Origin: a virus
DNA length: 43,492 nucleotides
IMG/VR virus record: IMGVR_UViG_3300047462_000086
Location: 1-43,492 of that record
Direction: 5' to 3' (one strand)
Shown: in pieces, positions 9,870 to 32,843 of the stretch
Numbering within the stretch: position 1 is the first letter of the stretch
How the letters are laid out: every line of letters begins with the position of its first letter
Translations under genes and position numbers: made by a program
Notes under the pieces: model-generated
The model's database searches: none
What the model was told of the DNA's origin: nothing
What the model saw: the letters and a program-made list of their open reading frames with translations, nothing else

Positions 9870-9914
9870 GCTAAACCGGTTTAGCAAGAAGCCGTGATGC
9901 GCGCGGCGCAAAAT
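9870..9914 (+). promoter_or_regulatory. Late promoter 1 (lysis block): activator palindrome plus -10
   Basis: The perfect 16-bp palindrome GCTAAACCGGTTTAGC (9870-9885) is followed 23 bases later by CAAAAT (9909-9914) and 35 bases later by the endolysin ATG. The same palindrome occurs at 21045 and 32799 with equivalent spacing. Its position corresponds to Mu Plys. The palindrome centre lies about 43 bp before the start codon, which fits an activator site overlapping a weak -35 if transcription starts near the ATG. Confidence 0.75.
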
Positions 9915-9920
9915 GCCCGC

Positions 9921-10499
9921 ATGATCAGTTATTCCAGCGACATCATCGCGCGCGCGATCGCGCAGGCTTCGGGTATTTCCCGCGCGCCTGGCGAAGAGGG
10001 CCTGGTGCTGCACGCGTATCCGGACCCCGCGACGGGACGTGACCCGTGGACGATCGGTTTTGGTTCGACGCGGATGCTGGATTTCACGACGGGCGTGCGG
10101 CGGCCGGTTCGGACAGGTGATGTTGTGAGCGCAGCCGAGGCCGAGATGATGCTTGAGGCCGACTTGCGCGAGAGCTTGCAGACAGTGCTGGATACGACGT
10201 TCGTGATGCTGAACGGTGACCAGCTTGGCGCGCTGACCAGCTTTACGAACAATGTGGGGCGCGGCGAGAAGGGCGTGAAGGACGGGCTGGTTTGCCTGCG
10301 CAGCGGCGCGCCTTCGACGCTGCTGCAGATGGTGAATGCGCGGATGTTCGAGCAAGCCGCCGGGCAATTTGGGCTGTGGGATTTGGCGGCCGGCCGCGTG
10401 ATGGGCGGGCTGGTGAGGCGCCGCGCGATCGAGCGGGATGTATTCCTTTCCAAGCTGGATATGACGGGCGCGGTTGTTCCCGCCTGGTGGCGGCCATGA
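9921..10499 (+). CDS. Endolysin, GH24 lysozyme type
   Basis: This 192-residue muramidase should cleave peptidoglycan glycan strands at lysis. The GH24 catalytic signature is visible as GEEGLVLHAYPDPATGRDPW then TIGFGST: the Glu of EGL (residue 26), Asp35 nine residues later, and Thr44 before IGFG, as in T4 lysozyme. No signal peptide or membrane anchor is seen, so release should depend on the holin encoded next. ATG at 9921 is chosen over GTG 9894 because its distance to the late palindrome matches the other two late blocks. The stop overlaps the holin start (ATGA). Confidence 0.9.
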   Translation: MISYSSDIIARAIAQASGISRAPGEEGLVLHAYPDPATGRDPWTIGFGSTRMLDFTTGVRRPVRTGDVVSAAEAEMMLEADLRESLQTVLDTTFVMLNGDQLGALTSFTNNVGRGEKGVKDGLVCLRSGAPSTLLQMVNARMFEQAAGQFGLWDLAAGRVMGGLVRRRAIERDVFLSKLDMTGAVVPAWWRP

Positions 10500-10753
10500 A
10501 CACGACGCTTTCGGCTGGGAGTGCGGCCGGCGGCGGGAGCTTCGCGGTGGTGACGCTGCTGATCTACGTGCTGTCACTGCGCGGGATCAATCTGCCGGAC
10601 AATGTCGCGCTCGCGATCAGCGCGCTGCTGACGATGGTGTTTCATTACCTCATCGCGCTGAAATTGTTGCCTAGCCTGCCGGGTGACCCGGCGGCGACCG
10701 CGCCTGGCGACCAGGCGCTAGCAACGCTGACGACAACCAAACCTCAATCATAA
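10496..10753 (+). CDS. Putative holin, two membrane spans
   Basis: This 85-residue protein has two hydrophobic segments, FAVVTLLIYVLSL and ALAISALLTMVFHYLIAL, joined by a short loop (GINLPDN) and followed by a soluble proline- and alanine-rich tail. Size, topology and overlap with the endolysin gene fit a class II-like holin that permeabilises the inner membrane. No specific holin family is named. No recognisable Rz/Rz1 spanin pair follows. Confidence 0.72.
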   Translation: MNTTLSAGSAAGGGSFAVVTLLIYVLSLRGINLPDNVALAISALLTMVFHYLIALKLLPSLPGDPAATAPGDQALATLTTTKPQS

Positions 10754-10765
10754 AGGATTTTTAAC

Positions 10766-11116
10766 GTGGACGGAACAATCGAAACGACCGGGACGGTTTC
10801 CGGTGAAGTCAAAGCCATCGAGGATGGCGTGAACGTGGCGGCCGGTGTGGGCGCCGCAGTGGGCGGGTCGATCGGCGCGGCGGTGGATGCCGGCGTGACG
10901 GCGGCCGAAGGTGTTGTGAACGACGTGATCGAAAAAGCGCCGCACCAGACCGCGCTGACCGATATCGGCAATGCGGTGAATGACGCCGCGCCGCTGATCA
11001 ACCAGGCGGCCGCCGGTCTGACGACGCCGGCGAATGCCGCGCGCATCGCGACGGGGTGGAGTGTGATCCAGTCTATCCTCGCCGAGATCGAGGGTCTGTT
11101 CGGCCACAAAGCCTAA
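10766..11116 (+). CDS. Unknown Ala/Gly-rich protein of the lysis block
   Basis: This 116-residue protein starts at GTG 10766 with AAAGGA upstream. It is rich in Ala, Gly and Val (GVNVAAGVGAAVGGSIGAAVDAG), may form weakly hydrophobic helices, and ends in a WSVIQSILAEIEGLFGHKA helix. It has no signal peptide. Its position between holin and a terminator suggests an auxiliary lysis role, but no family is recognised. Confidence 0.6.
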   Translation: MDGTIETTGTVSGEVKAIEDGVNVAAGVGAAVGGSIGAAVDAGVTAAEGVVNDVIEKAPHQTALTDIGNAVNDAAPLINQAAAGLTTPANAARIATGWSVIQSILAEIEGLFGHKA

Positions 11117-11129
11117 ACCCTGCCTGAGA

Positions 11130-11164
11130 ACGGCCCCTTGCGCGATGCCGGGGGCTGTTTTCGG
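11130..11164 (+). terminator. Probable intrinsic terminator after the lysis genes
   Basis: ACGGCCCC and GGGGCTGT form an 8-bp stem with one G-U pair around a 13-base loop, followed by TTTTC. It closes the three-gene lysis block and may reduce transcription into the glycosyltransferase gene. No promoter was seen between it and 11181, so read-through is probably needed. Confidence 0.5.
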
Positions 11165-11180
11165 GCTTTGAGGATTTTGC

Positions 11181-12257
11181 ATGACCCGCATATTGTTTGT
11201 TCTGAAATTTCGCGAAAATTCCTATGGCGGCGAGAGCGCGCAATACTCGCGCTGCCTGACTAGCGGATTGCTGAACAGCGCGACGTTCGTTTGCGACATG
11301 CTGAAATCCCGGTTCGAGACGAAGCTCGTTCAGGTCGTCGACAATAATTGCATCGATCGAGAGGTTGTCGCATTCGCGCCTGATGTGGTGGTGATCGAAG
11401 CCTATTGGGTCGTACCCGAGAAATTTGCCGAGCTGGGCAAGCTTCACCCGAAGGTGAAGTGGATAATCCGCAATCATAGCAACGCGCCGTTTTTGGCAAA
11501 CGAGGGCATCGCCTATGGCTGGACGATTGATTATGTCAGGCACCCGAACGTGTGGGTGAGTTCCAATCACCCGGCCGCCCATGGCGAGTTTGTCGATCTG
11601 ATCGCGGTCGCGTTCGACACGAAGATTGGCCAGGCTTCGCGCCGCGCCGTGTACCTGCCGAATTATTATCCGATCGCCGGCGAGGTTGAGCCGAGCGCGC
11701 CGTATGCCGGGCGCGGCACGATCGACGTTGGATGTTTTGGCGCGATCCGGCCGCTGAAAAACCAGATGCTCCAGGCGCTGGCGGCGATAACCTGGGCGCG
11801 GCAGAACGGCAAGTTTTTGCGCTTTCATATCAATGGCGGCCGCGTAGAGGGTAACGGCGAACCGATTTTGAAAAATCTTCGCTCGACGTTGGCGGCTCTG
11901 GAAACGGCGCGGCTTGTTGAGCATGCATGGCTCGACCGGGAGGATTTCCTGGCGATGGTAAAGACGATGGACCTGGGACTTCAGGTTTCATTTTCAGAGA
12001 CCTTCAACATCGTTGCGGCGGATTTTGTGACGATGGGCGTGCCGATCGTTGTCAGTCCGGAGGTGCATTGGGTCGATGCGCGGCTGCACGCGTCACCGAC
12101 GAGCGTGGGCAGCATTGTCGCGGCGATGAGCACCGCGCTGAACTGCCCAGGGTGGGATTGGCCGGATCGGTCGCTGGCGCAGCTCGCGCGGTTTGATGAG
12201 GATTCGAAAATTCATTGGGTGAATGGCATCACGCGTGTGCTGGAAGATGTGAAGTGA
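11181..12257 (+). CDS. GT-B-fold glycosyltransferase, GT4-like
   Basis: This 358-residue protein has a GT-B layout. The N-terminal part begins MTRILFVLKFRENSYGG, and the C-terminal half has GCFGAIRPLKNQ and the donor-binding-type motif SETFNIVAADFVTMGVPIV with VSPEVHW. Such enzymes transfer a sugar from a nucleotide donor. It is not part of the Mu core and sits between the lysis genes and the gp25-like gene, so it is probably cargo. Possible acceptors are host surface polysaccharide (altering phage receptors) or modified phage DNA; the sequence does not decide. The start has GAGGA eight bases upstream. The stop overlaps the next gene (TGATG). Confidence 0.8.
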   Translation: MTRILFVLKFRENSYGGESAQYSRCLTSGLLNSATFVCDMLKSRFETKLVQVVDNNCIDREVVAFAPDVVVIEAYWVVPEKFAELGKLHPKVKWIIRNHSNAPFLANEGIAYGWTIDYVRHPNVWVSSNHPAAHGEFVDLIAVAFDTKIGQASRRAVYLPNYYPIAGEVEPSAPYAGRGTIDVGCFGAIRPLKNQMLQALAAITWARQNGKFLRFHINGGRVEGNGEPILKNLRSTLAALETARLVEHAWLDREDFLAMVKTMDLGLQVSFSETFNIVAADFVTMGVPIVVSPEVHWVDARLHASPTSVGSIVAAMSTALNCPGWDWPDRSLAQLARFDEDSKIHWVNGITRVLEDVK

Positions 12258-12421
12258 TGAAACCTACGATCGGGCGGATTGTGCATTATTACGAGGGCGA
12301 TTTTGAGGCGCTCGAAGCAGAGCGGGGGACATGTCTGACACATCCGACGCGCGAAGCGCGCGATGAAGGTACACATTGCGTGAACAGCGGCTGGCGATGG
12401 CCGCCGGCGGCTGGCCGGTAG
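12257..12421 (+). CDS. Small conserved-type phage protein
   Basis: This 54-residue protein begins MKPTIGRIVHYYEGDFEAL, a start I associate with small proteins found in other prophages, but I can give no function. It has two cysteines and ends Trp/Pro-rich (SGWRWPPAAGR). It starts in a TGATG junction and its TAG is directly followed by the ATG of the next gene. Confidence 0.65.
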   Translation: MKPTIGRIVHYYEGDFEALEAERGTCLTHPTREARDEGTHCVNSGWRWPPAAGR

Positions 12422-12763
12422 ATGATGAATGCCGCGGACTGGCAGGCGACGGCGGAATGGCTCGGCTTTATCTGGCTGGTTTCCAACGCGATAGTTTGGG
12501 GGCTGTTCTACCGTGCGCAGGCGGCGTTCGTGACGCGGGCGGAGCATGCGAAGGTGGTGGACAGGGTCGACCAGATCGAGGCGCAGATCACCGGGCTGTT
12601 TACCAACGAGAAGGCGGACACGTTAACCAGAAAGCTTGATGAGGTGACCCGGCAGAATGCCGAGCTGATCGGGAAGTTGCCGGGTGTTGAGAAATCCATC
12701 GAACGGCTTTCGACGCACATCAACATGCTGCTGGAAAACGAGCTTAAGGAGATGCGAAAATGA
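12422..12763 (+). CDS. Mu gp25-like membrane and coiled-coil protein (DUF2730)
   Basis: This 113-residue protein has one N-terminal membrane span (WLGFIWLVSNAIVWGLFY) followed by a long coiled coil (HAKVVDRVDQIEAQI to HINMLLENELKEM). That layout and the gene order match the DUF2730 family, which includes Mu gp25. The role is unknown. The start directly follows the previous stop; a second ATG lies one codon later. It overlaps the next gene as ATGA. Confidence 0.75.
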   Translation: MMNAADWQATAEWLGFIWLVSNAIVWGLFYRAQAAFVTRAEHAKVVDRVDQIEAQITGLFTNEKADTLTRKLDEVTRQNAELIGKLPGVEKSIERLSTHINMLLENELKEMRK

Positions 12764-13059
12764 GCCTGCGCGATGTGATGGCCGAGTACCGGCGGCTGAC
12801 GATTTTGCGGGCGCTCGATGAGTACGGATATTCCGCAAACGAGGATGTGCTGAAAACGGTGTGCAACGAGTTCAGCAATTTCGCGACGAAGGATTTGGTG
12901 CGGGCCGATATCTCGTTCCTGAATGAGCACGGGCTGGTGCGGCTGGAGAAGCTGCAAAAGGAAAGCGGCGAAATCTGGATCGCGCATTTGCTGACAGCCG
13001 GCCAGGAAGTGGCGAAGGGGCGCGTGCATCCCGGCGTGGCGCGGCGGGAGCCTGGTTGA
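12760..13059 (+). CDS. Mu gp26-like small winged-helix protein
   Basis: This 99-residue protein (RLTILRALDEYGYSANEDVL, then DLVRADISFLNEHGLVRLEKL) has the pattern of an ArsR-like winged helix and corresponds in position and size to Mu gp26-type proteins (VpaChn25_0724 family in my recollection). It precedes the gp27-like protein and is thought to belong to the packaging region. ATG at 12760 overlaps the previous stop. Confidence 0.75.
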   Translation: MSLRDVMAEYRRLTILRALDEYGYSANEDVLKTVCNEFSNFATKDLVRADISFLNEHGLVRLEKLQKESGEIWIAHLLTAGQEVAKGRVHPGVARREPG

Positions 13060-13637
13060 TGGGGCGGCCGTCCAGCATCGACAGGCTGCCTCCGGATATG
13101 CGGGTGCTGATCGGGCAGCTGCGCGGCGAGGGGCATACGATCGATCAGATATTGGCGCATCTGGCGGATATGCGCAGCCATGTCGCGGTTTCGCGCTCGG
13201 CGTTGGGGCGGCATATCAAAGGTTTCGACAAGATCGCGGAGAAGATGCGCAACAGCCGCGTGGTGGCGGAGGCGCTGGTGCGCGAGCTTGGGGATGCGCC
13301 GGAGAGCAAGACGGCGAGGCTGAACATCGAGCTGCTGCACGGCGCCATCAATGACTTGTTCATGAACCACCTGGAGGCCGGCGAGGCGGCGATCGACGGC
13401 GATGGTGTGGCGGCGATGCAGGGCAACCCGGAAGGGGTGATGATGCTGGCGAAGGCGTTGGACCATTTGGGCCGGGCGTCGAAGAGCAATGTCGAGTTCC
13501 TCGTGATGGCAGAGCGGCGCGCGACGGAGAAGGCGAAGCAGGAATCCTTTGCGGCCGTGGAGGCGGTGGCGAAGACGGCCGGGCTGAGCGCCGATACCGT
13601 CGAGGCGATTAAATCAAAAATCTTTGGGGTGACGTGA
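13059..13637 (+). CDS. Mu gp27-like protein (DUF3486), putative small terminase
   Basis: This 192-residue protein begins GRPSSIDRLPPDMRVLIGQL, characteristic of the DUF3486/Mu gp27 family, with a helix-turn-helix-like region (TIDQILAHL to VSRSALGRHI). It is considered the likely small terminase subunit, recognising phage DNA for headful packaging. ATG at 13059 is used (TGATG); TTG at 13056 is an alternative. Unlike in Mu, six small genes separate it from the large terminase gene. Confidence 0.82.
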   Translation: MGRPSSIDRLPPDMRVLIGQLRGEGHTIDQILAHLADMRSHVAVSRSALGRHIKGFDKIAEKMRNSRVVAEALVRELGDAPESKTARLNIELLHGAINDLFMNHLEAGEAAIDGDGVAAMQGNPEGVMMLAKALDHLGRASKSNVEFLVMAERRATEKAKQESFAAVEAVAKTAGLSADTVEAIKSKIFGVT

Positions 13638-13822
13638 TGCAGTCATTTCTCTGCGCGGCTTCGCTGCTGATGATGGCGCTGTTCGTGGCCGTGATTTTGG
13701 TGTCGGCGTCGGTGTTGTTCTGGCTGATCGAGCGGGCTGTGAGATCATGGGTGAAGGCGCGGAACAGGAAACGGAACCGGCGCAGCAAGCGACGCGGCAT
13801 CAGCTCCACGAGGTTTTCGTGA
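13637..13822 (+). CDS. 61-residue membrane protein
   Basis: A hydrophobic N-terminal half (SLLMMALFVAVILVSASVLFW) forms one membrane span and is followed by a very basic tail (KARNRKRNRRSKRR), so the C-terminus should face the cytoplasm. It starts and ends in TGATG junctions. The function is unknown. Confidence 0.65.
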   Translation: MQSFLCAASLLMMALFVAVILVSASVLFWLIERAVRSWVKARNRKRNRRSKRRGISSTRFS

Positions 13823-14082
13823 TGGCCGATCGGGTCACTCAAGAGCAGGTGGACGATCAGATCATCGGGGCGGATTATTATGTGTTTCCCGGAACGACGC
13901 TGACGATCTGCGCGTTGAAATTGCGCAATGGTTTCATTGTGACGGGGCAGAGTGCCGCCGCCAGCCCGGCCAGCTTCGATTACGAGATCGGCGAGCGCCT
14001 GGCGATGGACGATGCTAGGCGCAAAATTTGGGAGCTGGAGGGGTATCTGCTGCGTTCGAAGATGGCGGGGCATGTGAAATGA
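13822..14082 (+). CDS. Gp49/gp66-like phage protein
   Basis: This 86-residue protein contains GTTLTICALKLRNGFIVTGQ and FDYEIGERLAMDDARRKIW then LEGYLL. This pattern matches the N4 gp49 / Sf6 gene 66 family of small phage proteins, whose function is unknown. ATG at 13822 is preferred (TGATG junction, motif complete) over an in-frame ATG at 13747, which would overlap the membrane-protein gene by 76 bp. Confidence 0.78.
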   Translation: MADRVTQEQVDDQIIGADYYVFPGTTLTICALKLRNGFIVTGQSAAASPASFDYEIGERLAMDDARRKIWELEGYLLRSKMAGHVK

Positions 14083-14327
14083 AAGCTTCGGAGTCGAGAA
14101 AAAAGGCAAATATACCGGGAGTTGGTCCAATGCGTCACGAAGCTACGAGGCTGCGCCTCTATGCCGCCGCGAGAGGGGTTCCAGAGAATGAAGCCGTCTA
14201 CGATCTCAGGCCGTTCGCTGATGCAAACCCGAGCCTGCTTGACCGGGTTATCAAGCGCGAATGCGTGGCGATGGCGGACCGCCTGCTGGCTGCGCATGTG
14301 AAGATTGCCGCGGAGGCAAAGCAGTGA
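14079..14327 (+). CDS. Unknown small protein
   Basis: This 82-residue basic protein starts at ATG 14079 in an ATGA overlap. It contains RHEATRLRLYAAARGVPENEAV and RVIKRECVAMADRLLAAHV. No family is recognised. It belongs to the run of small coupled genes between the gp27-like and large terminase genes. Confidence 0.6.
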   Translation: MKASESRKKANIPGVGPMRHEATRLRLYAAARGVPENEAVYDLRPFADANPSLLDRVIKRECVAMADRLLAAHVKIAAEAKQ

Positions 14328-14518
14328 GCGTGCCGCTTTCCCGCGTGGTGGACCGGGTGAAGGTTGCCGAGGATGACGGGTTCGAGGCGTTCGTGAACGG
14401 GCTGAATGTCGGCAATAATCCGATGCCGGCATCAGACATCGAGCGGCAATATGCCTGGCAGCGCGGTTGGCATGAGGCGCGGGTTTATATCGCTGGGTGG
14501 AAGGGCGAAGCCGCATGA
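14324..14518 (+). CDS. Unknown small protein
   Basis: This 64-residue protein starts at GTG 14324, overlapping the previous TGA. It contains DDGFEAFVNGLNVGNNP and RQYAWQRGWHEARVYIAGW, the latter resembling small phage proteins whose motif suggests a compact helical fold. The function is unknown. The stop overlaps the next ATG (ATGA). Confidence 0.6.
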   Translation: MSVPLSRVVDRVKVAEDDGFEAFVNGLNVGNNPMPASDIERQYAWQRGWHEARVYIAGWKGEAA

Positions 14519-14724
14519 GCGATGACGCGGAGCTTGCAAGCTTCCGTTCTCACATGGAGCGCTGCGCGCAGTTGATCCTTGCGCCGATAACACGGCCGGA
14601 TATCAAATTTACGATCATCGTCAGGGCGCCCGAAGCCCTTCCGTCAGAAGCGATGATCTACACCAATGATTGCATGCTGATCGCCGCTGAGAGCTTGCTT
14701 CCTGCGGAGGCGCGTAAAGAATGA
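14515..14724 (+). CDS. Unknown small protein
   Basis: This 69-residue protein starts at ATG 14515 (ATGA). The segment ITRPDIKFTIIVRAPEALPSE is beta-like, and it ends LLPAEARKE. No family is recognised. Support comes from coupling on both sides and absence of a better frame. Confidence 0.6.
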   Translation: MSDDAELASFRSHMERCAQLILAPITRPDIKFTIIVRAPEALPSEAMIYTNDCMLIAAESLLPAEARKE

Positions 14725-14921
14725 GCCAAGTGCGCCAGCAACATGCGGAGACGGTGAGCGCGCAGGTTGCGTGGGTGATAGCTTCGCTGCGCCGCGATGC
14801 CGCGGGGCATGATCGGTTTGCTCTCACTTTGCTGGCGCATGACACGCATGACGAATACCGTTTCGCGGTCGAAAACCCAGACCTTGTGACGATCATTCCC
14901 GCTTGGCAGGGCGAGGCATGA
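14721..14921 (+). CDS. Unknown small protein
   Basis: This 66-residue protein starts at ATG 14721 (ATGA) and overlaps the terminase start. It contains SLRRDAAGHDRFALTLLAH and VTIIPAWQGEA. The last residues resemble the end of the 14324-14518 product (GWKGEAA). The function is unknown. Confidence 0.6.
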   Translation: MSQVRQQHAETVSAQVAWVIASLRRDAAGHDRFALTLLAHDTHDEYRFAVENPDLVTIIPAWQGEA

Positions 14922-16516
14922 GCGACGCCGCGCTCCTCGATGCGCCGGCGGCGTTGCCGCCGGTGTTTCTGAATTATCAACAGCGGCTGATGAGCGCGGT
15001 TGCGCGGAATGCCGTGGTGGTTTGGGAGAAGTCCCGGCGCACCGGGTTTTCCTGGGCGGCGGCCGCGATCGCTTCGTTGACGGCATCGAGCGCGCGCGAG
15101 GCGGGCGGCATGGATGTGCTGTACCTGGGCTATAATTTGGAGATGGCGCGCGAGTTCATCGACTATGTCGGCGAATGGACCGTGACGCTTGGTGCCGCCG
15201 CCGGCGAGATGATGGAGGTGATGATCGATGATCCGGAGCACCCGGAGAAATCGGTCAAGGCGTTTCGGGTGGAATTCGCGTCCGGCTTCAAGGTGCTGGC
15301 GCTGCCATCCGTGGCGCGCGCGCTGCGCGGCATGCAGGGGCTGGTGATCATCGACGAGGCGGCTTTCCATGATGATTTGCCGGGCGTGTTGAAGGCGGCG
15401 TTCGCGCTGTTAATCTGGGGCGGCAAGGTGGTTGTGCTGAGCACCCATGACGGCGACGGCAACCCGTTCAACACGCTGTGCACCGATATCCGCGCCGGGC
15501 GGCTGCCGTACCATATCGGGCGGACGACGTTCGATGAGGCGCTGGCGGACGGGCTTTACCGGCGTGTTTGTTTGACCGCCGGCAAGGCGTGGACGCCGGA
15601 GGGCGAAGCGGCGTGGCGCGCGGAAATTATCGCGATCTATGGCGCGAATGCGGATGAGGAATTGTTCGTCATTCCGAGTGCGGGCACCGGCGCTTATCTA
15701 TCGGCCGCGCTGATCGAAGCGCGGATGGATGAGACAATTCCGGTGAGGCGGCTGGAGTTGCCGGCGAGTTTTTTGATGATGTCCGAGCGGCTGCGGATCG
15801 CCGAGATCGAGGAATGGTGCGCGCGCGAGCTGCTGCCGATTTTGAAGACGCTGGATGCCAAGACGCCGTATTGCTTCGGGCAGGATTTTGGGCGCAAGCG
15901 CGACCTTTCCGTGTTCTGGCCGCTGGCGATCTGCCGCGATTTGGTGCTGCGCACGCCGTTCCTGCTGGAAATGCGCAACGTGCCTTACGAGGCGCAAAAG
16001 CAGGTGATTTTCTACATCATCGACCGGTTCCCGATTTTCCGGGCGGGCAAGTTCGATGCCGGCGGAAATGGCGGCTACCTGGCCGAAGTCACGATGCAGA
16101 GATATGGCGAGCGCATCGAGGCGGTGATGCTGAACGAGCCTTGGTACCGTGAGCACACGCCGCGGTACAAGGCGCAGTTCGAAGACGCGACGATCACGCT
16201 GCCGCGCGACCGCGAAGTGCTGGATGACCACCGGCTAGCGAAATTGATCCGCGGCGTGGGGCGCATTCCGGATGAGCGCACCGGCGAGGCCGGCAAGAGG
16301 CGGCACGGCGACAGCTTCGTCGCCGGCGTGCTGGCGGTGGCGGCGTCCAGGGCTGAGCCCGAGGAATATGGCTATGAGGCGGTGCCCCTGCGCAGCACGG
16401 CGCCGGCGACCAGTGCCGGGTTTTATGCGACGGCCGAGGAGGCCGATGCCGTGGATGATGAGCGGCAGAACGATGCCGGATACATGCACGCGCCGACGCG
16501 GCGGGTTTACCAATGA
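14918..16516 (+). CDS. Terminase large subunit, Mu gp28-like
   Basis: This 532-residue packaging motor drives DNA into the prohead and cuts it. The ATPase half shows an adenine/Walker A region, WEKSRRTGFSWAAAA (about residues 43-57), Walker B GLVIIDEAAF and coupling motif VVVLSTHDGDG. The nuclease half has acidic positions in FGQDFGRKRDLSVFW, KFDAGGNGGYLAE and RRHGDSFVAGVLAVA, typical of RNase H-like terminase nucleases. ATG at 14918 overlaps the previous stop; an in-frame start at 14903 would add five residues. It is separated from the portal gene by four small genes. Confidence 0.93.
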   Translation: MSDAALLDAPAALPPVFLNYQQRLMSAVARNAVVVWEKSRRTGFSWAAAAIASLTASSAREAGGMDVLYLGYNLEMAREFIDYVGEWTVTLGAAAGEMMEVMIDDPEHPEKSVKAFRVEFASGFKVLALPSVARALRGMQGLVIIDEAAFHDDLPGVLKAAFALLIWGGKVVVLSTHDGDGNPFNTLCTDIRAGRLPYHIGRTTFDEALADGLYRRVCLTAGKAWTPEGEAAWRAEIIAIYGANADEELFVIPSAGTGAYLSAALIEARMDETIPVRRLELPASFLMMSERLRIAEIEEWCARELLPILKTLDAKTPYCFGQDFGRKRDLSVFWPLAICRDLVLRTPFLLEMRNVPYEAQKQVIFYIIDRFPIFRAGKFDAGGNGGYLAEVTMQRYGERIEAVMLNEPWYREHTPRYKAQFEDATITLPRDREVLDDHRLAKLIRGVGRIPDERTGEAGKRRHGDSFVAGVLAVAASRAEPEEYGYEAVPLRSTAPATSAGFYATAEEADAVDDERQNDAGYMHAPTRRVYQ

Positions 16517-16526
16517 GACATTCGTC

Positions 16527-17517: not shown

Positions 17518-19209
17518 ATGGCCGATGATGATAGCCGGCTGATCGACCAGTTCGGCAACGTGATCAGGAGCAGCGATATCGCGCGGCTGCGCGAGCCGAT
17601 TGCCGCACCTGGCGGGTTTGGCGGCAGGCCGCCTTTCGAGGGGCACCGGGCGTTCGGCATTCAGCCGTGGCAGATAGGGATGTATCTGCGGGCGGCGGAT
17701 AATGGCAGCACGCGGGATTGGTTCGTGCTGTGCGAGGAGATCGAGGAGCTGTACCCGCATTACGCCGCGGTGCTGGGTAAAAGGAAGCGCCAGGTGTGCC
17801 TGCTGCCGGTGACTGTCGAGGAAGCCGATGACGGGCCGGACAAGGTGAAGCACGCCGACTTCGTGCGCAAATGGTTGAAGACGGGCGTGCTTGACCGGGC
17901 GATGTTCGACATGGCGGATGCGATCGGCAAAGGGTATTCCGTCAACGAAATCATGTGGGATACGCAGCCGGGGCGGGTTTGGCCTTCGGAGATCATCTGG
18001 CGGCATCAGCGCGACTTCGAGATTTCCTGGAAGGATGGCGAGACGATTTGGCTGCGTGATGAGGCCGGGTTCGTGCCGCTGGCCGAGCATAAATTCATCC
18101 TGCATGTGCATAAGAGCAAATCGGGCGGCCCGGCGCGCAGCGGGCTGACCCGCATGATCGCCTGGATGTGGATGTATGCCGTGTTCACCATGAAGGATTG
18201 GGCGTTGTTTGTGCAGGGCTATGGGTTGCCGGTGCGGCTGGGGCGGTATGGGCCCGAGGCATCCACCAGCGACAAGCGGACGCTGTGGAATGCGGTGCGG
18301 TCGATCGCCGGTGATCTGGCGGCGATTATTCCGAAGAGCATGGAGATGGAGTTCGTGCAGCCGCAGAACGCCAATGACGGTTCAAAACTGTTCAGCGAGC
18401 GGATGAATTTTCTGAATTACGAGGTGAGCAAGCTGGTTCTGGGCGGGACCGCCGGGACCGATGCCGTCGCCGGCGGCCACGCTGTGGGGCAGGAGCACCG
18501 GGCGGGCGAGCAGGATGTGGAGAAATTCGATGCGGGGCTGATGGCCGGTTCGATCAACCGGCAGCTGATCCCGGCGATGATCGCGTTCACGTTCGGGCCG
18601 CAGGAGAACGGCTACCCGACGATCAAGATCGGCGAGGATGAGAAAGTTCCGGTGAGCGACCTGATCGCGGCGGTCGCCGACCTTGGGCCGCTTGGGTACA
18701 AGGTGAAGGCATCCGAGATGCATGACCGGATGCAGACGACGATGCCGGAGGCCGGCGATGAGGTGATCGGCGCGCCGCCGCCGGCGCCGGCCGGCGCGGT
18801 TGGTGGGAAGCTGGATGCGAACGGCAACCCGCTGGTGAAGGCGGATGTGACGCCGAAGGCGAACCCGCACCCGGAGATCAACCCAATGTCGGATGCGCGG
18901 GCGCTGATGACGGCGCGCAGTTTTAGGCGGTTCGTGGCGGCGCAGACTGCGAAGGATGCGCGGACTTCCGGCGTGATCGACGCGCTGAGCACCAGGTTGG
19001 AGGAGCAGGCGCAGGGCGCGCTGGCGGCGATGACCGCGCAGATCCGCGCTTGCGTGGAGCAGGCCGAGGATTTGCCTGACCTGGCCGTGAAGCTGAAGAC
19101 GCTGAACCTGGATGATACGGCGTTTCAGAATGCGATGATGCAGGGCATGGTGCTGGCGAATTTGGCTGGCCAGGCTGACCTGCTGGATGAGATCGCGGGC
19201 CAGGCGTAG
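17518..19209 (+). CDS. Portal protein, Mu gp29-like (DUF935)
   Basis: This 563-residue protein forms the ring at the head vertex through which DNA enters and leaves. Family features include AFGIQPWQIGMYLRAADNGS near residue 46, YPHYAAVLGKRKRQV, NEIMWDTQPGRVWPSEIIW and WALFVQGYGLPVRLGRYGP. Length and order match Mu gp29. ATG at 17518 has only a weak ribosome site (GGAGGGATAG). It is followed by the F-like gene after three bases. Confidence 0.93.
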   Translation: MADDDSRLIDQFGNVIRSSDIARLREPIAAPGGFGGRPPFEGHRAFGIQPWQIGMYLRAADNGSTRDWFVLCEEIEELYPHYAAVLGKRKRQVCLLPVTVEEADDGPDKVKHADFVRKWLKTGVLDRAMFDMADAIGKGYSVNEIMWDTQPGRVWPSEIIWRHQRDFEISWKDGETIWLRDEAGFVPLAEHKFILHVHKSKSGGPARSGLTRMIAWMWMYAVFTMKDWALFVQGYGLPVRLGRYGPEASTSDKRTLWNAVRSIAGDLAAIIPKSMEMEFVQPQNANDGSKLFSERMNFLNYEVSKLVLGGTAGTDAVAGGHAVGQEHRAGEQDVEKFDAGLMAGSINRQLIPAMIAFTFGPQENGYPTIKIGEDEKVPVSDLIAAVADLGPLGYKVKASEMHDRMQTTMPEAGDEVIGAPPPAPAGAVGGKLDANGNPLVKADVTPKANPHPEINPMSDARALMTARSFRRFVAAQTAKDARTSGVIDALSTRLEEQAQGALAAMTAQIRACVEQAEDLPDLAVKLKTLNLDDTAFQNAMMQGMVLANLAGQADLLDEIAGQA

Positions 19210-21044: not shown

Positions 21045-21089
21045 GCTAAACCGGTTTAGCTAGTGGCGTGAAATTGGCGGCGGCAATGT
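21045..21089 (+). promoter_or_regulatory. Late promoter 2 (head and tail block): palindrome plus -10
   Basis: The palindrome GCTAAACCGGTTTAGC (21045-21060) is followed 23 bases later by CAATGT (21084-21089) and 36 bases later by the protease ATG at 21097. It shares the 22-bp sequence CGGCTAAACCGGTTTAGCTA plus GT with the copy at 32799. The location corresponds to Mu PI. Confidence 0.75.
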
Positions 21090-21096: not shown

Positions 21097-22086
21097 ATGG
21101 ACGTTTCCTCCCTGACTGTCTCCTTGCCGGATGGCGATGGTGTTCCCGCGTGGATACATCTGCTGCCGTCCGGCACATTTTCCGACACGTCCGGGAAGCA
21201 ATACCATTTGAAGAACGCCGCCGGCGTGGTGGCCTCGACCAAGGCGCGCGGAAAGATCGCGCTCGATGAGAATCATTCGACCCAGCGGGCGACGGCGGTG
21301 GGCGCATCGAGCCCGGCGCGGGCGTGGATTTCGGAATTCGACATTCGTGCGGATGGGATTTGGGGCAAGCCCGAGTGGAACCCTTCCGGCATCGCTCTGA
21401 TGACCGACAAATCCTACAAAAACATCTCGCCGGTATACCGGCACGATAAGGACGGGAACGTCCTTTACCTGATCAGCGCTGCCCTGACCAATGATCCGGG
21501 CTTGCCGCAGCTGACGGCTTTGCACTCCAACAACGGGAACAACATGGAAAAAGATGCGATTTGCACCGCGCTCGGCCTCGCCGTGACGGTGCCGGATGCC
21601 GAGGTGCTGACGGCGCTGCAGACGGCCGCGGGGCATGGGACGGCGCTGCAGACGGCGCAGGCGGAAATTGCCCGGTTGAAGGGCGAGCTGACGACGCTGC
21701 AGACGACCAGCGTGCCGATGGCCAAGGTTGTCGAGCTGGAAACCAGCCTGACCACGCTGCAGACGAGCATCGCCAAGGAAAAGGCGATCGCGTTCGTGGA
21801 TGGCGCGATCCGGGCGGGCAAGCCGATCGGCGCCAGCCGGGATAATTTCATCGCCTTGCATACCGCCGACCCGGCGGGGACCGAGACGATGGTGGGCAAG
21901 ATGCCGAGCATCAACGGTGCGCGCGCGGACGGCAAGCATATCAAGCTGCAGGATGCGGTGGACGAAGACACGGTCGAGATGACAGCCGCCGACATGGCCG
22001 TGTGCACCAAGATGGGCCAGGACCCGGCCGCCTTCCTGAAAACCAAAAAGGCCATGATGGCCACCACTGAAGGGAGTGCCGCGTAA
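21097..22086 (+). CDS. I: Prohead protease/scaffold, Mu gpI-like
   Basis: This 329-residue protein has the Mu I protease domain in its first 150 residues (IALDENHSTQRA, KSYKNISPVYRHDKDGNV, SAALTNDPGLPQL). A scaffold-like coiled-coil region follows (TAQAEIARLKGELTTLQT, then VVELETSLTTLQTS). It processes head proteins and guides capsid assembly. An in-frame ATG at 21544 (MEKDAI) marks the junction and could produce the scaffold alone, as with I and Z of Mu, but its ribosome site is weak. The start at 21097 lies 36 bases after the late palindrome and has no clear Shine-Dalgarno. Confidence 0.9.
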   Translation: MDVSSLTVSLPDGDGVPAWIHLLPSGTFSDTSGKQYHLKNAAGVVASTKARGKIALDENHSTQRATAVGASSPARAWISEFDIRADGIWGKPEWNPSGIALMTDKSYKNISPVYRHDKDGNVLYLISAALTNDPGLPQLTALHSNNGNNMEKDAICTALGLAVTVPDAEVLTALQTAAGHGTALQTAQAEIARLKGELTTLQTTSVPMAKVVELETSLTTLQTSIAKEKAIAFVDGAIRAGKPIGASRDNFIALHTADPAGTETMVGKMPSINGARADGKHIKLQDAVDEDTVEMTAADMAVCTKMGQDPAAFLKTKKAMMATTEGSAA

Positions 22087-25218: not shown

Positions 25219-25220
25219 CC

Positions 25221-26756: not shown

Positions 26757-26765
26757 GGCTGACGC

Positions 26766-27146
26766 ATGTCCGGTTCCATTTCGCAATCCCTTGGTATCAT
26801 CACCCTGATCTGGGGTGGTCAGACGCTGAACGTGGATAAGAGCAGCAGCTTTTCGCCCGGCGGCCCGATCGACAAGATGGTGATGAACGGAAACCAGATC
26901 ACGTATTCGACCGACCAGGTGACGCCCAGCATGGTGGATGCCAAGTTCGTACTGCAGAAGGGTCAGAGCATCACGGCGTTGAAGGCGCTGAACGGGTCCG
27001 AAATGCAGATCGAGTGCGATAGCGGGCAGACCTTCACCATCGCCAGCGCGCGGCTGACGAAGGATATCAAGATCACCGGCGGCGCGACGAATAACTGCTC
27101 GGCGAGCTGGGGTGGGACGCCGGCGACCGAGGTGATCGCGCAATGA
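26766..27146 (+). CDS. M: Tail tube protein, Mu gpM-like
   Basis: This 126-residue protein forms the inner tube. It shows the Mu M-type pattern: SSSFSPGGPI, NQITYSTDQVTPSMVDAKF and LKALNGSEMQIECDSGQTFT. The stop overlaps the chaperone gene (ATGA). Confidence 0.92.
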   Translation: MSGSISQSLGIITLIWGGQTLNVDKSSSFSPGGPIDKMVMNGNQITYSTDQVTPSMVDAKFVLQKGQSITALKALNGSEMQIECDSGQTFTIASARLTKDIKITGGATNNCSASWGGTPATEVIAQ

Positions 27147-27598
27147 AGATCACCGATGTCGAGGTGTTTCACGACCCGGATGAATTGCCGGTGGAACATG
27201 AAGAGGTTCTGCCAGAGCTGACGGAGGTTAAAGCGGATCGGCGCGCTGTGACGCTGCCGCCCGACTTTCCGGAAAATGCGACGCCGTCCGATGATGGGGA
27301 TGGCAGCTTCATTTTGAAGCTCGACTATCCGAAGACGCTGAAGTTCAAGGCGGCGGATGGCTCAGTCAAAGAGGAGCGCTATGCCTCGTTGCACCTGCGC
27401 CGATTGAATGGAAAGGCACAACGCGAGATTTCGCAGGCCAGCACGAATGATTTCCGGCCGCAAATGATCGCGAGTTCGACCGGCATGACGCTCGGCCGCG
27501 CGCGGCTGCTGCATGATGTGATGGACGCTTCGGACATTGCCGCGGTGTTGACAGTGGTCAAGTTTTTTACGACGCCTGGCCGGAAGACTGGCGCCTAA
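27143..27598 (+). CDS. Tail assembly chaperone, Mu gp41-like (upstream product)
   Basis: This 151-residue protein is the short chaperone made before the tape measure. Recognisable are FILKLDYPKTLKFKAADGSV, HLRRLNGKAQREISQAS and LLHDVMDASDIAAVL. Near its end AAG TTT TTT ACG contains six T (27563-27568), where a -1 slip would add the segment up to 27711. Confidence 0.85.
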   Translation: MKITDVEVFHDPDELPVEHEEVLPELTEVKADRRAVTLPPDFPENATPSDDGDGSFILKLDYPKTLKFKAADGSVKEERYASLHLRRLNGKAQREISQASTNDFRPQMIASSTGMTLGRARLLHDVMDASDIAAVLTVVKFFTTPGRKTGA

Positions 27599-27711
27599 TT
27601 CTGGCTGGGCTCGCGCGGTTCTATCATTCGCCGCTGCATGAAATCGAGGCGCTGCCGCTGGACCAGGTGTTGTTCTGGAATTCGGCCGCGCACGGGTTGA
27701 CCAACCAATAG
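27568..27711 (+). CDS. Tail chaperone extension reached by -1 frameshift (gp42-like)
   Basis: In the -1 frame, codons from TAC at 27568 to TAG at 27709-27711 give a 47-residue segment, YDAWPEDWRLILAGLARFYH onward, ending AAHGLTNQ, which looks strongly protein-like. A single-codon slip at TTT TTT would fuse it to residue 142 of the upstream protein, making about 189 residues. Tail chaperone pairs of long-tailed phages are classically produced this way. The shift site here is a T6 run rather than a canonical X XXY YYZ heptamer in the zero frame. Confidence 0.7.
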   Translation, partial: YDAWPEDWRLILAGLARFYHSPLHEIEALPLDQVLFWNSAAHGLTNQ

Positions 27712-27720
27712 GGGGCAGGT

Positions 27721-29574
27721 GTGTCTGAAGAACTTGTCGCCGAGCTTACTCTTAAACTGCGGAACGACATGGGTGCGGGGATCGATGATGTCCGCGCCGA
27801 GTTCGATGGGTTGGAAGGAACGCTGCAGCAGCTGCGTGACGTGCTTGGCGGGTTGACCGAGGAGTTGCAGGCGATGCGCGCGCCTCAGGGGTTGGCGGAT
27901 GGGTTTTCCGCCGTGGTTACCCAGGCAGATGCGGCGACGACAGCGGTACAGGCGATTGGCGCGGCGATCGATGACGATGTCGCGAAGGTGCAGGCTCTGA
28001 AAGATGCGTGGGCCGGTTATGGCGGGACTGGCGGCTTTAGTGGGGCGATGACGCAACTGGCGCCCACAGCCGGTTATGAAGATGATGGCTCGATGCGGCC
28101 CGACTTCATCCCGCCGGAAACTGTCATTCCATGGAATGGCCCGGAAGCCGGCTCCGGGGATGGCGGCGCCCAGGGTGATGGTGAAGGCCGCAGCGGCGGT
28201 GAAGGAAGTGGCCATGGGGGCGGCGCCGGCGATATGGCGACGAATTTGTTGTTCGCTGGAATTGAATTGGCGACGGGGCGAGAAGCCGCCGAAAAATACG
28301 CCGATTTCGATTGGATTTTGACGCATATTGCGATCACGGAAAAGCTAAGCGGTGCAGCTGCAGATAAGGAAAAAGAGTTTCTGACAGGCGCGCTCGATGA
28401 TCTGGCAACGAAGACGGGAACTTCCAGCACAGATCTGGCAAATGCTTATTCTTTTCTGGTGACGACCGGAATGAGCCATGATCTGATCAACCAGCTTATG
28501 CCTGGCCTGGCGGAAACCGCGACCGCGTATAATGTTCCTGTCGAGGACCAGGCGCAGAGCGTTTTCACGCTGAGCGATGTGATGGGGATCGGACCGCAAC
28601 AGATGCCGCAGGCGCTGGCTACGCTGGCCTATGCGGCGAAGCTGGGGCATTTCGGCGTTGCTGATTTCGGACATTACCTACCTGGCATCGGCGCGCAGCT
28701 AAGCATCTTGGGCGATACCGGTATCGCCGGCGAGGACCAGGCGGCGGCAGCCCTGGAAACCGTGCGACGCGTTACAGGCACGTCCGAGGAAGATGCGACT
28801 GACGTGCAGGACTTAATCAACTACATGACCTCGCCGATCGCCGCGCGGTTTTTTGACCGCACTCAACGTTCGAAAGATTTGTTGGGTGCTCCTATCCTGG
28901 GCCTTTTCAAGAAATACCAAGTCCCGGATATCAACATCCCGGCCTTCCTGGACGATGAAAAGGCCGAAGGCGTCGACAGCTTCGATGCGATGGTCGACCT
29001 TGCGCGCAAAATCTACAATCCGAAGATGACGCCGACGGATCAGCGCGAAATTTTTGGCGCGCTGTTTCACAACCAGCAGGCAGCGATGGCCGCGCTCGGC
29101 CTCGTGGAGAATTATGGCGTCTTTAAATCCGACGAGGCAACTTTGGGCGGCGTTAGCCAGGGCACTGTGGCGACCGATTATCAGACGGCGAGTGCTACAC
29201 CGAAAGTAGGGCTTGATAAGCTCGACGAGCAGATCGCCGAAACCACACGCATCGTGGGCCAGGGCCTGAATCCGACGTTTGATTTGCTGACTGGGGTTGT
29301 GAGGGATTTCGGCCTTGGCATGCAAACGATCGAAACTGAGTTTGGCATCGTGACGAAGCCGCTGACAACCGGGGTCGGAACGACGGCTGCCTATACGCAG
29401 CACGAGATCGACATGCATCCGAATGGTGCGATTCGATCGAGGTTCGGTTTTGCTGAGCCGATGAAGATTGAGCTGACTGTAAAGGGCGACGGCGCGGTTA
29501 CCAACACCACAGCCACGCCACAGCCTGGCGTGAACCTGCGCGTTAATCAGGGCCGGGTGCTCGGGCACGAATAA
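27721..29574 (+). CDS. Tail tape measure protein
   Basis: This 617-residue protein sets tail length and leads DNA ejection. An N-terminal coiled coil (IDDVRAEFDGLEGTLQQLRD, VLGGLTEELQAM) is followed by a flexible Gly-rich linker (EGRSGGEGSGHGGGAGD, about residues 160-175). The TP901-like region follows (LATKTGTSSTDLANAYSFL, LAYAAKLGHFGVADFGHYLP). The start is GTG at 27721 with GGGGGCAGG upstream. The last 20 residues overlap into the next gene start by one base. Confidence 0.88.
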   Translation: MSEELVAELTLKLRNDMGAGIDDVRAEFDGLEGTLQQLRDVLGGLTEELQAMRAPQGLADGFSAVVTQADAATTAVQAIGAAIDDDVAKVQALKDAWAGYGGTGGFSGAMTQLAPTAGYEDDGSMRPDFIPPETVIPWNGPEAGSGDGGAQGDGEGRSGGEGSGHGGGAGDMATNLLFAGIELATGREAAEKYADFDWILTHIAITEKLSGAAADKEKEFLTGALDDLATKTGTSSTDLANAYSFLVTTGMSHDLINQLMPGLAETATAYNVPVEDQAQSVFTLSDVMGIGPQQMPQALATLAYAAKLGHFGVADFGHYLPGIGAQLSILGDTGIAGEDQAAAALETVRRVTGTSEEDATDVQDLINYMTSPIAARFFDRTQRSKDLLGAPILGLFKKYQVPDINIPAFLDDEKAEGVDSFDAMVDLARKIYNPKMTPTDQREIFGALFHNQQAAMAALGLVENYGVFKSDEATLGGVSQGTVATDYQTASATPKVGLDKLDEQIAETTRIVGQGLNPTFDLLTGVVRDFGLGMQTIETEFGIVTKPLTTGVGTTAAYTQHEIDMHPNGAIRSRFGFAEPMKIELTVKGDGAVTNTTATPQPGVNLRVNQGRVLGHE

Positions 29575-30845
29575 TGGATATCGATAGCATTTTCTCGACG
29601 CTGTTGAGTGCCACGTTTGGGGGCGCGCCGTTTGGGGTGATCGATAGCTCCGTCGAGATCGGGCGGCGGGTGCAGCGGTTTGTTTTTCCGGGCGTGGATG
29701 AGCCGAGCTTCCAGGACTTGGGGGCGGATTACGGGCCGATCATGGTGCGGGGCATTTTGGCCGGTGACGATTACATCGCGCAGATGCGCAACCTGGTGAA
29801 TATCTGTGCGCAGCCGGGGCCTTACACGCTGGTGCACCCATGGCTGGGAAGCGGCCAGGTGGTTTTCGTGCCTGGGACGAGGGCGAAAATATCGCTGGTC
29901 GGGACCGAGTTACGCATCGCGCGGTTCGAGATGCAACTGCTGAACTATAATCCCCCGCCGAGCACGCGGCTGGATACGCTGAGCCAGTTGGAGGTGGATT
30001 GCGATGCGCTGCAGGCGCAGGCGCAGAATTACCTGGCGGCGGCGCTGGCGCCGATCGGCACGGTGCTGGGGGCGCTGAGCTACGCGCAAGGGTATCTGGT
30101 AGGGCTGCAGCAGACGATGAACCAGGCGATTGCGGGTACGGCCTCGGCCGGGATTATCGCGGCGCAGGCGGCATCCGCGCTGGTGGGGCTGGTGGTGGAT
30201 ACGACGCTGGCGCCGGCGGCCTGGGCCGGGGCGACGGCGGCGGCGATGGTGGCCGTGCCGGCGGCGATTGAGCAGGCGGCCGCGCCATTGGCGCCTTCGG
30301 CCGTGGCGCCTGGCGGGGCGAGCGTGGCGGCCGTTGCGGCCGACCCGACTGATACCACCAACACACTGCTGGCCGCCGCCGCTGGGGCGGCCGTGGCGGC
30401 GGGCACGCCGGCACCGGGCCCGGCGCTTGGAGCGGGGATGCAGGCGGCGTTCGTAGCGGCCGCTGTGCAGGCGGCCGCGCGGATCAACTACACGAGCCAG
30501 CAGCAGGCCGAGGCGCAGGCGGCGCTGCTGTATGCCGCGATCGACGCGGCCGCGGTGGCGGCGGCCACGCTGGCACAGACAGACCCGGCGAATGCGGCGC
30601 CGGTGTGGCGCGGGTTGCTGGCGATGCGCGGCAGCCTGGCGGCTGATGTGAATTCGCTGATCGGCAGGCTGCCGCCGGTGGTGACGATCACGACGCAGGC
30701 GACGATGCCGGCATGGATTTTGGCGCAGTATATTTCGGGCGACACGCCATCGGACGTGTACGCCACCTATCTGGATTTGATCTCTCGCAACAACGTGTTG
30801 AACCCAGCGCTTGTGCCGCCCGGAATGTTGGAAGTTCTTAACTGA
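29574..30845 (+). CDS. N: DNA circularisation/ejection protein, Mu gpN-like
   Basis: This 423-residue protein has the N-terminal DNA_circ_N domain in its first 125 residues (FGGAPFGVIDSSVEIGRRVQ, FPGVDEPSFQDLG, YTLVHPWLGSGQVVF). A very long alanine-rich stretch (about residues 140-330) follows, and a C-terminal segment with WILAQYISGDTPSDVYATY. In Mu-like phages it belongs to the tail hub or ejection apparatus. Its start shares one base with the previous stop (TAATG). Confidence 0.88.
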   Translation: MDIDSIFSTLLSATFGGAPFGVIDSSVEIGRRVQRFVFPGVDEPSFQDLGADYGPIMVRGILAGDDYIAQMRNLVNICAQPGPYTLVHPWLGSGQVVFVPGTRAKISLVGTELRIARFEMQLLNYNPPPSTRLDTLSQLEVDCDALQAQAQNYLAAALAPIGTVLGALSYAQGYLVGLQQTMNQAIAGTASAGIIAAQAASALVGLVVDTTLAPAAWAGATAAAMVAVPAAIEQAAAPLAPSAVAPGGASVAAVAADPTDTTNTLLAAAAGAAVAAGTPAPGPALGAGMQAAFVAAAVQAAARINYTSQQQAEAQAALLYAAIDAAAVAAATLAQTDPANAAPVWRGLLAMRGSLAADVNSLIGRLPPVVTITTQATMPAWILAQYISGDTPSDVYATYLDLISRNNVLNPALVPPGMLEVLN

Positions 30846-30855
30846 GGAAAATGCA

Positions 30856-31023
30856 ATGGAAAGCTTGGACAAATTGAAGAAATCGGTGAAGCGGCTTGCC
30901 TACGCGATCAAGAATGCGAACGACGAAATGCCGACGGATGCGGAGATTGAGACGATTATCGATTGCGGGTGCGATATCTTTGCCGACGGCGCGCAGGTGG
31001 TTAAAGAGGTTGGGCGGCGTTGA
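30856..31023 (+). CDS. Small protein between N and P
   Basis: This 55-residue protein starts at ATG 30856 with GAGGAAA upstream, the clearest ribosome site in this region. It is charged and helical (DKLKKSVKRLAYAIKNANDE) with a CGC motif. Not part of the usual Mu gene set; function unknown. Its stop overlaps the TTG start of P. Confidence 0.65.
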   Translation: MESLDKLKKSVKRLAYAIKNANDEMPTDAEIETIIDCGCDIFADGAQVVKEVGRR

Positions 31024-32252
31024 GCGGCAGAATTCCGCCGACGACGCCGACCAGGCGCCTGGCGCTGAGCGTGGCGGGGCTGGTGCTGACGCGGTGGACT
31101 TCGGTTTCCGTCGCCAGGAATTTGCGCGATATCGCGGGCAGTTTCGCGGTGCAGTACCGGGATGCGGGGCGCGAGGCGCAGGCGTTCAGCCCGGATTTGG
31201 ATATCGCGCCGCTGTTTCAGATCGTGCAGCCTGGGATGGCGTGCAAAGTTGCGATTGACGGCACCACGGTGATGACCGGATGGATCGATGAGGTGGATGT
31301 GAGCTGGGATGCGGCCAGTATCACCGCGACGATCACTGGACGAGACGTGACGTGTGATCTGGTGGATTGCGCGGCGGCGCCGAGCGGGCCGGTTGAATAC
31401 CGGAATATGTCGACGCTGCAGATCGCGCAGGCGATTTGCAAGCCGTTCGGCATCACCGTGACGCAGGATGTGCCGTCGCAAAATATTTTTCCGGTGTTCG
31501 GGTTAGATGCCGATGAGACGGCTTTGAGCGTGATCGAGAAAGCGGCGCGGCAGGATGCTCTGCTTGTCACATCAAACGGTGTGGGCGGCTTGATTTTAAC
31601 GACGGGCGGTTCGACGCGGGCGCCGGCGGCGTTGACCAGGCCGGGGAATATTCTGAGCGGCGGCATGAAGAACAGCTTCGCGCAAAGGTTTTCGGATTAT
31701 TACGTGAAGGGCCAGACGAATAAGAGCGTGCAGCGCATCACCCAGGCGCCGCTGATGACGAGTGCCACGGACCCGCGCAGCGGGCTGACATTTCCGATCG
31801 AGACCTCGACGACGGCGACGACGACGGAGAGCGTGACATCGATCATGACCGGACATTCGACGGACCCGCAGGTGACGCGCTACCGGCCGACGGTGCGGAT
31901 GGTGAAGACGCAAGCGGGTGCGGCGACGGTGCAGCAGCAAAGCGACTGGGCATTGCGGGTGGCGAAGGGCATGGGGCTGACGCTGAATTACAAGGTGCTG
32001 GACTGGCGGGCCGGGACGGCCAATGCGCTGTGGCTGCCGAACGCGCTTTCCAACGTGAATGACGGGATCTGCGATTTGAATTCGGATATGCTGATTTCTG
32101 GCATCACCTACGGATATGACCAGACCGGGGAATTCACGATGCTGGAGCTGGCGGGCCCGACGGCGTTTGACCGGATCGATGAGCCGGCGGACGACCCGCG
32201 CTATATTCAGGCGCGCAAGCCGAAATCATTCGGGCCAACGCGGCAGGGATGA
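31020..32252 (+). CDS. P: Baseplate hub protein, Mu gpP/gp44-like
   Basis: This 410-residue protein matches the Mu P baseplate hub: LVLTRWTSVSVARNLRDIAG, FSPDLDIAPLFQIVQPGM, TATITGRDVTCDLVDCAA and VIEKAARQDALLVTSNGVGG. The start is TTG at 31020, overlapping the previous TGA (TTGA). No better start lies before the conserved N-terminus. It overlaps gp45 by four bases. Confidence 0.9.
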   Translation: MSGRIPPTTPTRRLALSVAGLVLTRWTSVSVARNLRDIAGSFAVQYRDAGREAQAFSPDLDIAPLFQIVQPGMACKVAIDGTTVMTGWIDEVDVSWDAASITATITGRDVTCDLVDCAAAPSGPVEYRNMSTLQIAQAICKPFGITVTQDVPSQNIFPVFGLDADETALSVIEKAARQDALLVTSNGVGGLILTTGGSTRAPAALTRPGNILSGGMKNSFAQRFSDYYVKGQTNKSVQRITQAPLMTSATDPRSGLTFPIETSTTATTTESVTSIMTGHSTDPQVTRYRPTVRMVKTQAGAATVQQQSDWALRVAKGMGLTLNYKVLDWRAGTANALWLPNALSNVNDGICDLNSDMLISGITYGYDQTGEFTMLELAGPTAFDRIDEPADDPRYIQARKPKSFGPTRQG

Positions 32253-32785
32253 GTGCCATGCCCTACCATGTGCGCGGGATTATCGGCGGTTTGCGCAATG
32301 CGACGGCGGAGGGCGTGGTTTCCAGCCTGAACGATTCCGGCCAGGCGATGACGGTGAATTTGTCCACCGGCGATGGCGTGAACCGGGCGGATGTTGAGGT
32401 TGCCTCGCCCTGGGGTTTCAGTTCCAACCCGCCGGCGGATGGTATGTTGACGCTGGTGTTTGCGGTGGGCGGGGACCCTTCGAATTTGCGAGCCATGCAC
32501 CCGCATAATCCTTCGGCGCGGTTCGGTTCGCTAGAGGTTGGCGAGGCGGCGATTTATGGCGCCGATGGAAGCCGCGTGCATATTCGCAACGGGTCGATCG
32601 AGATATGGTCCGCGAATATCGAAATTTACGGCAATGTGAGCGTGAACGGAAAGCTGACGGCGACGGGAAATATCACGGCCGGCCAGGGCACCGGCGACCA
32701 GGTTGATTTACGGACACACACGCATGATTATATTCCGGGAACGGGTGCCGCGACGCCGACCAGCGCGCCGATTGCCGGCACCTGA
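32249..32785 (+). CDS. Baseplate spike, Mu gp45-like
   Basis: This 178-residue protein is the membrane-piercing spike. The N-terminal OB-like region (GIIGGLRNATAEGVVSSLND, ADVEVASPWGF) is followed by a triple-beta-helix-type repeat region (SVNGKLTATGNITAGQGTGD). A C-terminal TGDQVDLRTHTHDY carries the HxH motif that binds iron at the tip in such spikes. It is the last gene of late block 2. Confidence 0.9.
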   Translation: MSAMPYHVRGIIGGLRNATAEGVVSSLNDSGQAMTVNLSTGDGVNRADVEVASPWGFSSNPPADGMLTLVFAVGGDPSNLRAMHPHNPSARFGSLEVGEAAIYGADGSRVHIRNGSIEIWSANIEIYGNVSVNGKLTATGNITAGQGTGDQVDLRTHTHDYIPGTGAATPTSAPIAGT

Positions 32786-32798
32786 AATCACCGCATCG

Positions 32799-32843
32799 GC
32801 TAAACCGGTTTAGCTAGTCCCGCCTTGGCCTCGCGCGGACACT
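32799..32843 (+). promoter_or_regulatory. Late promoter 3 (baseplate and fibre block): palindrome plus -10
   Basis: The palindrome GCTAAACCGGTTTAGC (32799-32814) is followed 23 bases later by GACACT (32838-32843) and 36 bases later by the gp46-like ATG at 32851. It corresponds to Mu PP but lies after gp45 rather than before P. The -10 is weak, as expected for an activator-dependent promoter. Confidence 0.75.

Follow-up and report, generated by a model that had tools for sequence, protein, structure and literature searches.

The closest described counterparts of the locus analyzed here are the activator-dependent promoters of phage Mu. At the middle promoter Pm, the site of the activator Mor is a 16-bp element at −51 to −36 (centre −43.5), which replaces the −35 element and is built of 5-bp inverted repeats around a 6-bp G/C-rich spacer (PMC4390567). 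The promoters Plys, PI, PP and Pmom are served by one related activator, C; two of them precede the lysis gene and protease I, and the C gene lies just upstream of lys (PMC4461284). Here, we analyzed a 43,492-bp IMG/VR virus contig (hereafter, the window), which encodes homologues of Mu A, Mu B, GemA, the Mor/C activator, the Mu portal, gpT, gp45, gp46 and gp47 and, judging by its sequence, is a Mu-like transposable phage. It carries a repeated palindrome that is best explained, in our view with good probability, as the activator site of three late promoters whose first genes would be leaderless (Table 1).

The window shares with Pm the dyad layout, the −43.5 centring, the missing −35 element and a family-related activator. 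It differs from Pm in the sequence of the site, in having three late promoters where Pm is a single middle promoter, and in the predicted start of transcription on the start codon. Similarly, it resembles the C system in its single activator, encoded just upstream of the lysis gene, and in the promoters preceding the lysis gene and protease I. Only one Mor/C gene was found in the window, compared with two in Mu. An earlier sequence-only reading had likened the three sites to Plys, PI and PP; the parallel holds for the lysis and protease I sites, whereas the third precedes gp46. Because transcription from PP of Mu starts within gene N, some 350 nt ahead of gene P, the third site is not strictly a PP. 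At its right end, where Mu has mom, the window carries a gene for a D12-class adenine DNA methyltransferase (42387–43199), and scanning the window revealed no fourth, mom-type operator copy before it, a further difference from the C system.

Table 1. Coordinates of the predicted late promoters, the activator gene and the first late genes in the window
Feature	Position	Strand	Remarks
gemA	8947–9510		followed by mor (9512–9853), then lysozyme (9921)
mor, Mor/C-family late activator, 113 aa	9512–9853	+	TTG start just after gemA; phrog_836, E 1.4e-16
QMSMAF codons, C-terminal tail motif of activator	9830–9847	+	clamp-binding-like, M for L; contains invariant Q107
Operator 1 (lysis promoter), 16-bp palindrome	9870–9885		−51 to −36 if A of ATG 9921 is +1
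−10 hexamer CAAAAT, promoter 1	9909–9914	+	23 nt after operator; nAnnnT peak in relatives
Lysozyme; opens late block 1 (predicted leaderless)	9921–10499	+	PF00959; ATG 6 nt past −10
Operator 2 (protease I promoter)	21045–21060		perfect copy
−10 hexamer CAATGT, promoter 2	21084–21089	+	23 nt after operator; nAnnnT peak in relatives
Mu-like protease I; opens late block 2 (predicted leaderless)	21097–22086	+	PF10123
Operator 3 (gp46 promoter)	32799–32814		perfect copy
−10 hexamer GACACT, promoter 3	32838–32843	+	23 nt after operator; nAnnnT peak in relatives
gp46 baseplate protein; opens late block 3 (predicted leaderless)	32851–33306	+	PF07409

The element GCTAAACCGGTTTAGC is a 16-bp perfect palindrome. 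Its three copies are all intergenic, following mor, gpG and gp45, and each lies upstream of the first gene of a late block. The sequence-only reading had reported these copies, had noticed no others and had given the gaps of 35, 36 and 36 nt to the ATG and the hexamers at a constant distance, and all of this was reproduced in our scan: no additional copy occurs in the window even at up to three mismatches, and at the same tolerance 100 shuffles contained a mean of 0.08 matches (maximum 1). The 14-bp core of the palindrome was scanned as well. With the A of the ATG as +1, operators 2 and 3 lie one base further away than operator 1. Among 2.9 million viral contigs we found two exact matches to GCTAAACCGGTTTAGC (L004 and L005), which have unrelated surroundings and look like chance occurrences.

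We then turned to related prophages. The gpT capsid protein was searched in 397 genomes of the family of Acetobacter sp. DsW_063, of which 31 contained Mu-like relatives, and mor, protease I and gp46 were located in the regions around most gpT matches. Inspecting the upstream DNA revealed that nearly every phage has a dyad of its own, repeated at equivalent places; for example, the dyad is CTCCCCGCGCGGGGAG in G192, ACCGACRCGCGTCGGT in G115, GGGGGAAATCNTTCNCCC in G356, GGTGAACAGTGGCACC in G068 and TGCTGAAATCCTTCAGC in G261. A joint search for shared dyads, blind to start codons, covered 61 promoters of 22 phages (the window and 21 relatives); phages arranged differently (G121, G081, G377, G318) were not counted, nor were two in which the dyad search was unsuccessful. 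In the 21 Acetobacteraceae Mu-like prophages, the three equivalent places carry a dyad repeated within the phage, with unchanged geometry and a −10 at a fixed distance, the dyad sequence usually differing from phage to phage. The operators of the protease I and gp46 promoters agree in 15.7 of 18 bases within a phage and in 12.3 (sd 1.0) between phages, so that operators appear largely private to each phage. Nor, in two relatives, are they scattered through host DNA, which the sequence-only reading would have counted against itself: in the whole genomes of G356 and G192, the operator of the respective phage occurs exactly three times, always within the prophage. In G185 (L059, L060), unlike in its close relatives, the block shared before protease I and gp46 (17 of 18 bp) is not clearly palindromic.

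The distance from dyad to start codon is similarly constrained. An ATG lies 41–50 nt past the dyad centre in 22/22 protease I, 19/19 gp46 and 14/20 lysis promoters, against a background of 15%, and across the 61 promoters this distance is mostly 45–46 nt. A −10-like nAnnnT shows a sharp maximum at 33 nt from the dyad centre, where 32 of the 61 promoters have it, with every other position reaching 10 at most. Even the six lysis promoters of relatives that lack an ATG at the expected place, and so appear leadered, all keep nAnnnT at 32 or 33 nt. Among the 55 promoters with an ATG, nAnnnT ends 5–8 nt before it in 48 (3–13 in shifted controls) and is missing at the expected place in seven. The hexamers of the window end 6–7 nt before the ATG, a spacing that the sequence-only reading had missed. 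This gap is the normal distance from a −10 to a transcription start; transcription is thus predicted to begin on or next to the start codon, and the first gene of each late block would be translated from a leaderless mRNA. Given such a start, the window and the 61 promoters have the geometry of Mor/C-dependent promoters, with the dyad at about −51 to −36 and the −10 at its normal distance.

Leaderless mRNAs, defined by a transcription start mapped within 3 nt of the AUG, account for 5% of mapped gene 5′ ends in Gluconobacter oxydans, nearly all of them with ATG (PMC5756330), so such mRNAs exist in this host family. Upstream of protease I, the 30 nt before the ATG share 37% among four phages compared, placing the beginning of conservation at the ATG. 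Shine-Dalgarno energies do not decide the matter, with protease I (−5.4) scoring near the median for the remaining genes. The opening 15 nt of protease I (21097–21111 in the window), ATGGACGTTTCCTCC, are identical in the window, G394, G402, G185 and L006, third codon positions included, and later codons differ among these five phages; the identity may reflect a nucleotide-level constraint on the mRNA 5′ end. An alternating CG run just upstream of the −10 was observed in 9/19 gp46 promoters (the window, at 32832–32837, G394, G402, G115, G051, G350, G129, G315 and G283), 3/22 protease I promoters and 4/20 lysis promoters.

Taken together, we propose that the Mor/C-family activator binds the palindrome and that its dimer, sitting at about −51 to −36, would substitute for the missing −35 element. 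Host RNA polymerase could then initiate at the three late promoters, whose −10 elements (nAnnnT) are weak, at a position that coincides with the start codon or lies no more than about 2 nt from it. Promoter 1 would drive the lysis, terminase, portal and head-assembly block (9921 on), promoter 2 the protease, capsid and tail block (21097 on), and promoter 3 the baseplate and fibre block (32851 on). The earlier proposal of a late regulon under one operator gains support from the dyads of the relatives, the fixed geometry and the uniqueness in host genomes, with activator binding, activation and the transcription starts being our predictions. Compared with known Mor/C-dependent promoters, the new elements would be leaderless late mRNAs and private operators. 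This suggests a late-promoter rule for Mu-like phages, comprising one private dyad at three sites with the −10 about 33 nt and the ATG about 45 nt from its centre; it predicts leaderless translation of the lysis, head and baseplate operons, and the phages compared provide more than 20 activator–operator pairs for reading DNA recognition by Mor/C. The first late block also contains, after the lysis genes, a glycosyltransferase-like gene (11181–12257) with a weak match to PF13692.

Mu-like phages of other hosts provided an additional comparison. DMS3 and D3112 (Pseudomonas) and RcapMu (Rhodobacter) likewise repeat one dyad downstream of the Mor/C gene and upstream of protease I, and their operators differ in sequence from that of the window. 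In DMS3 and D3112, the element GTTGAACCCCTTC is found at both places; the ATG of DMS3 lies 44–45 nt from its centre, which points to leaderless transcripts, and both phages are apparently leaderless at both promoters. In RcapMu, the shared dyad is perfect and the ATGs lie 61–62 nt from its centre, implying leaders at both promoters. Pelagibaca phage P1 and Rhodovulum phage P1 seem to combine a leaderless protease I with a leadered lysis gene, and in SuMu the dyad search yielded no convincing shared dyad. As far as these spacings predict, leaderless late operons recur among Mu-like phages but are not universal. The rule also predicts that some annotated starts are wrong, as for protease I of DMS3 (L121): it is annotated at 19163, and the homologous N-terminus begins at 19037, which is probably the correct start. 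In the same genome, an unannotated reading frame from 10261 follows the matching late promoter.

The late promoters could instead be activator-dependent but start further upstream, or be translated from further downstream, leaving ordinary short leaders as in Mu. Mu does have leaders of about 20–25 nt before lys and I (starts were taken from published oligonucleotides, since the C sites of Mu itself escaped a generic dyad search), RcapMu and the lysis promoters of several relatives look leadered, and the lysozyme of the window has in-frame upstream starts, GTG 9894 and ATG 9897, both upstream of the predicted transcription start. We nevertheless consider short leaders improbable at these promoters: an ATG occupies the expected +1 in 41/41 protease I and gp46 promoters, the −10 keeps its distance from the dyad where the ATG is absent, and conservation of the protease gene sets in at the ATG.

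In two further readings, the palindrome is no activator site at all. A perfect palindrome is typical of a repressor site, and the window encodes a CI-like repressor (1213–1722), so the element might be an operator through which such a repressor silences late genes in the prophage. Neither the early region nor the repressor gene has a copy nearby, however; centring at −43.5 replaces the −35 and leaves the −10 free, as for an activator; and the sites differ between phages, as they should if each set tracks the late activator of its own phage. Silencing by a repressor is thus very unlikely. A transcription terminator or RNA hairpin, suggested by self-complementarity and by the location at operon boundaries, is hardly credible, given that none of the three copies is followed by a T-run, that a loopless 16-nt palindrome makes a poor hairpin, that a terminator has no need of fixed spacing to the −10 and ATG, and that an Rfam search gave no match. 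Activation by the Mor/C-family protein, with leaderless first genes, is the reading we retain.

The end of the activator gene and the first palindrome are 16 bp apart. The assignment of this gene to the Mor/C family draws on homology across the dimerisation region and the C-terminal helix-turn-helix (phrog_836) and on its place between gemA and the lysis gene, and Mor/C homologues occupy the equivalent place in the relatives. The Pfam Mor model PF08765 matched 12 of 16 aligned relatives and did not match the window activator, which gave a weak profile match to the Mor structure 1rr7; PF08765 alone recovered few alphaproteobacterial members. Searches with the single window Mor protein, by scanning viral contigs and by tblastn against phage records, returned no relative. 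The Mor alignment is too diverged for a degenerate-pattern scan, and the predicted structure of the window protein is unusable (pLDDT 38).

Across the 16 aligned Mor/C proteins, only four columns are invariant, one of them Q107 in the otherwise variable C-terminal tail. The tails read QLSLF, QLNLF, QMDLF, QLDLF, QPDLF and similar; Mu C ends in QPDLF-SPETPK, Mu Mor in QPSLL, the RcapMu activator in QLPLF-PDD and the Pelagibaca activator in QLSLPF-QND. The β-clamp consensus is QxxL(x)F or QL(S/D)LF (PMC5371812). We therefore scored the last 20 residues of 57 distinct Mor/C proteins chosen by a profile of the core only. QxxL(x)F was found in 18 of them (14/29 from Acetobacteraceae, 4/28 from elsewhere), compared with 0.5 in shuffles (maximum 4), 1 of 380 blocks from other parts of the same proteins and 7 of 1053 other large ORFs. 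The tail of the window activator, QMSMAF, deviates from this pattern in having M in place of L.

A precedent is known from T4: its late factors gp55 and gp33 have clamp motifs at their C-termini, and its late transcription is coupled to replication (PMC2988020). Late genes of Mu are expressed once replication has begun (PMC4461284). The tail motif, the T4 precedent and the timing in Mu make a clamp contact of Mor/C a reasonable hypothesis rather than a result. As in T4, where the clamp is gp45, transcription factors would end in a clamp-binding motif after a variable linker (PMC2988020); unlike in T4, Mor/C is a sequence-specific DNA-binding activator and, as the motif alone suggests, the partner would presumably be the host clamp DnaN. 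It is conceivable, if doubtful, that the Mor/C family, Mu C with its QPDLF included, binds the host clamp, so that late promoters would fire best on clamp-bearing, replicating phage DNA, in an arrangement evolved independently of T4 and here feeding leaderless late mRNAs. We found no report of such a contact in the open-access literature, a search that most subscription papers fall outside. The clamp-type tail is our most provocative lead and offers a testable proposal tying Mu-like late transcription to replication. In some relatives, two adjacent Mor/C-family genes are present (G318:C25, G377:C3, G220:C84); in G318 and G377 the pair immediately precedes protease I, which makes for another late layout.
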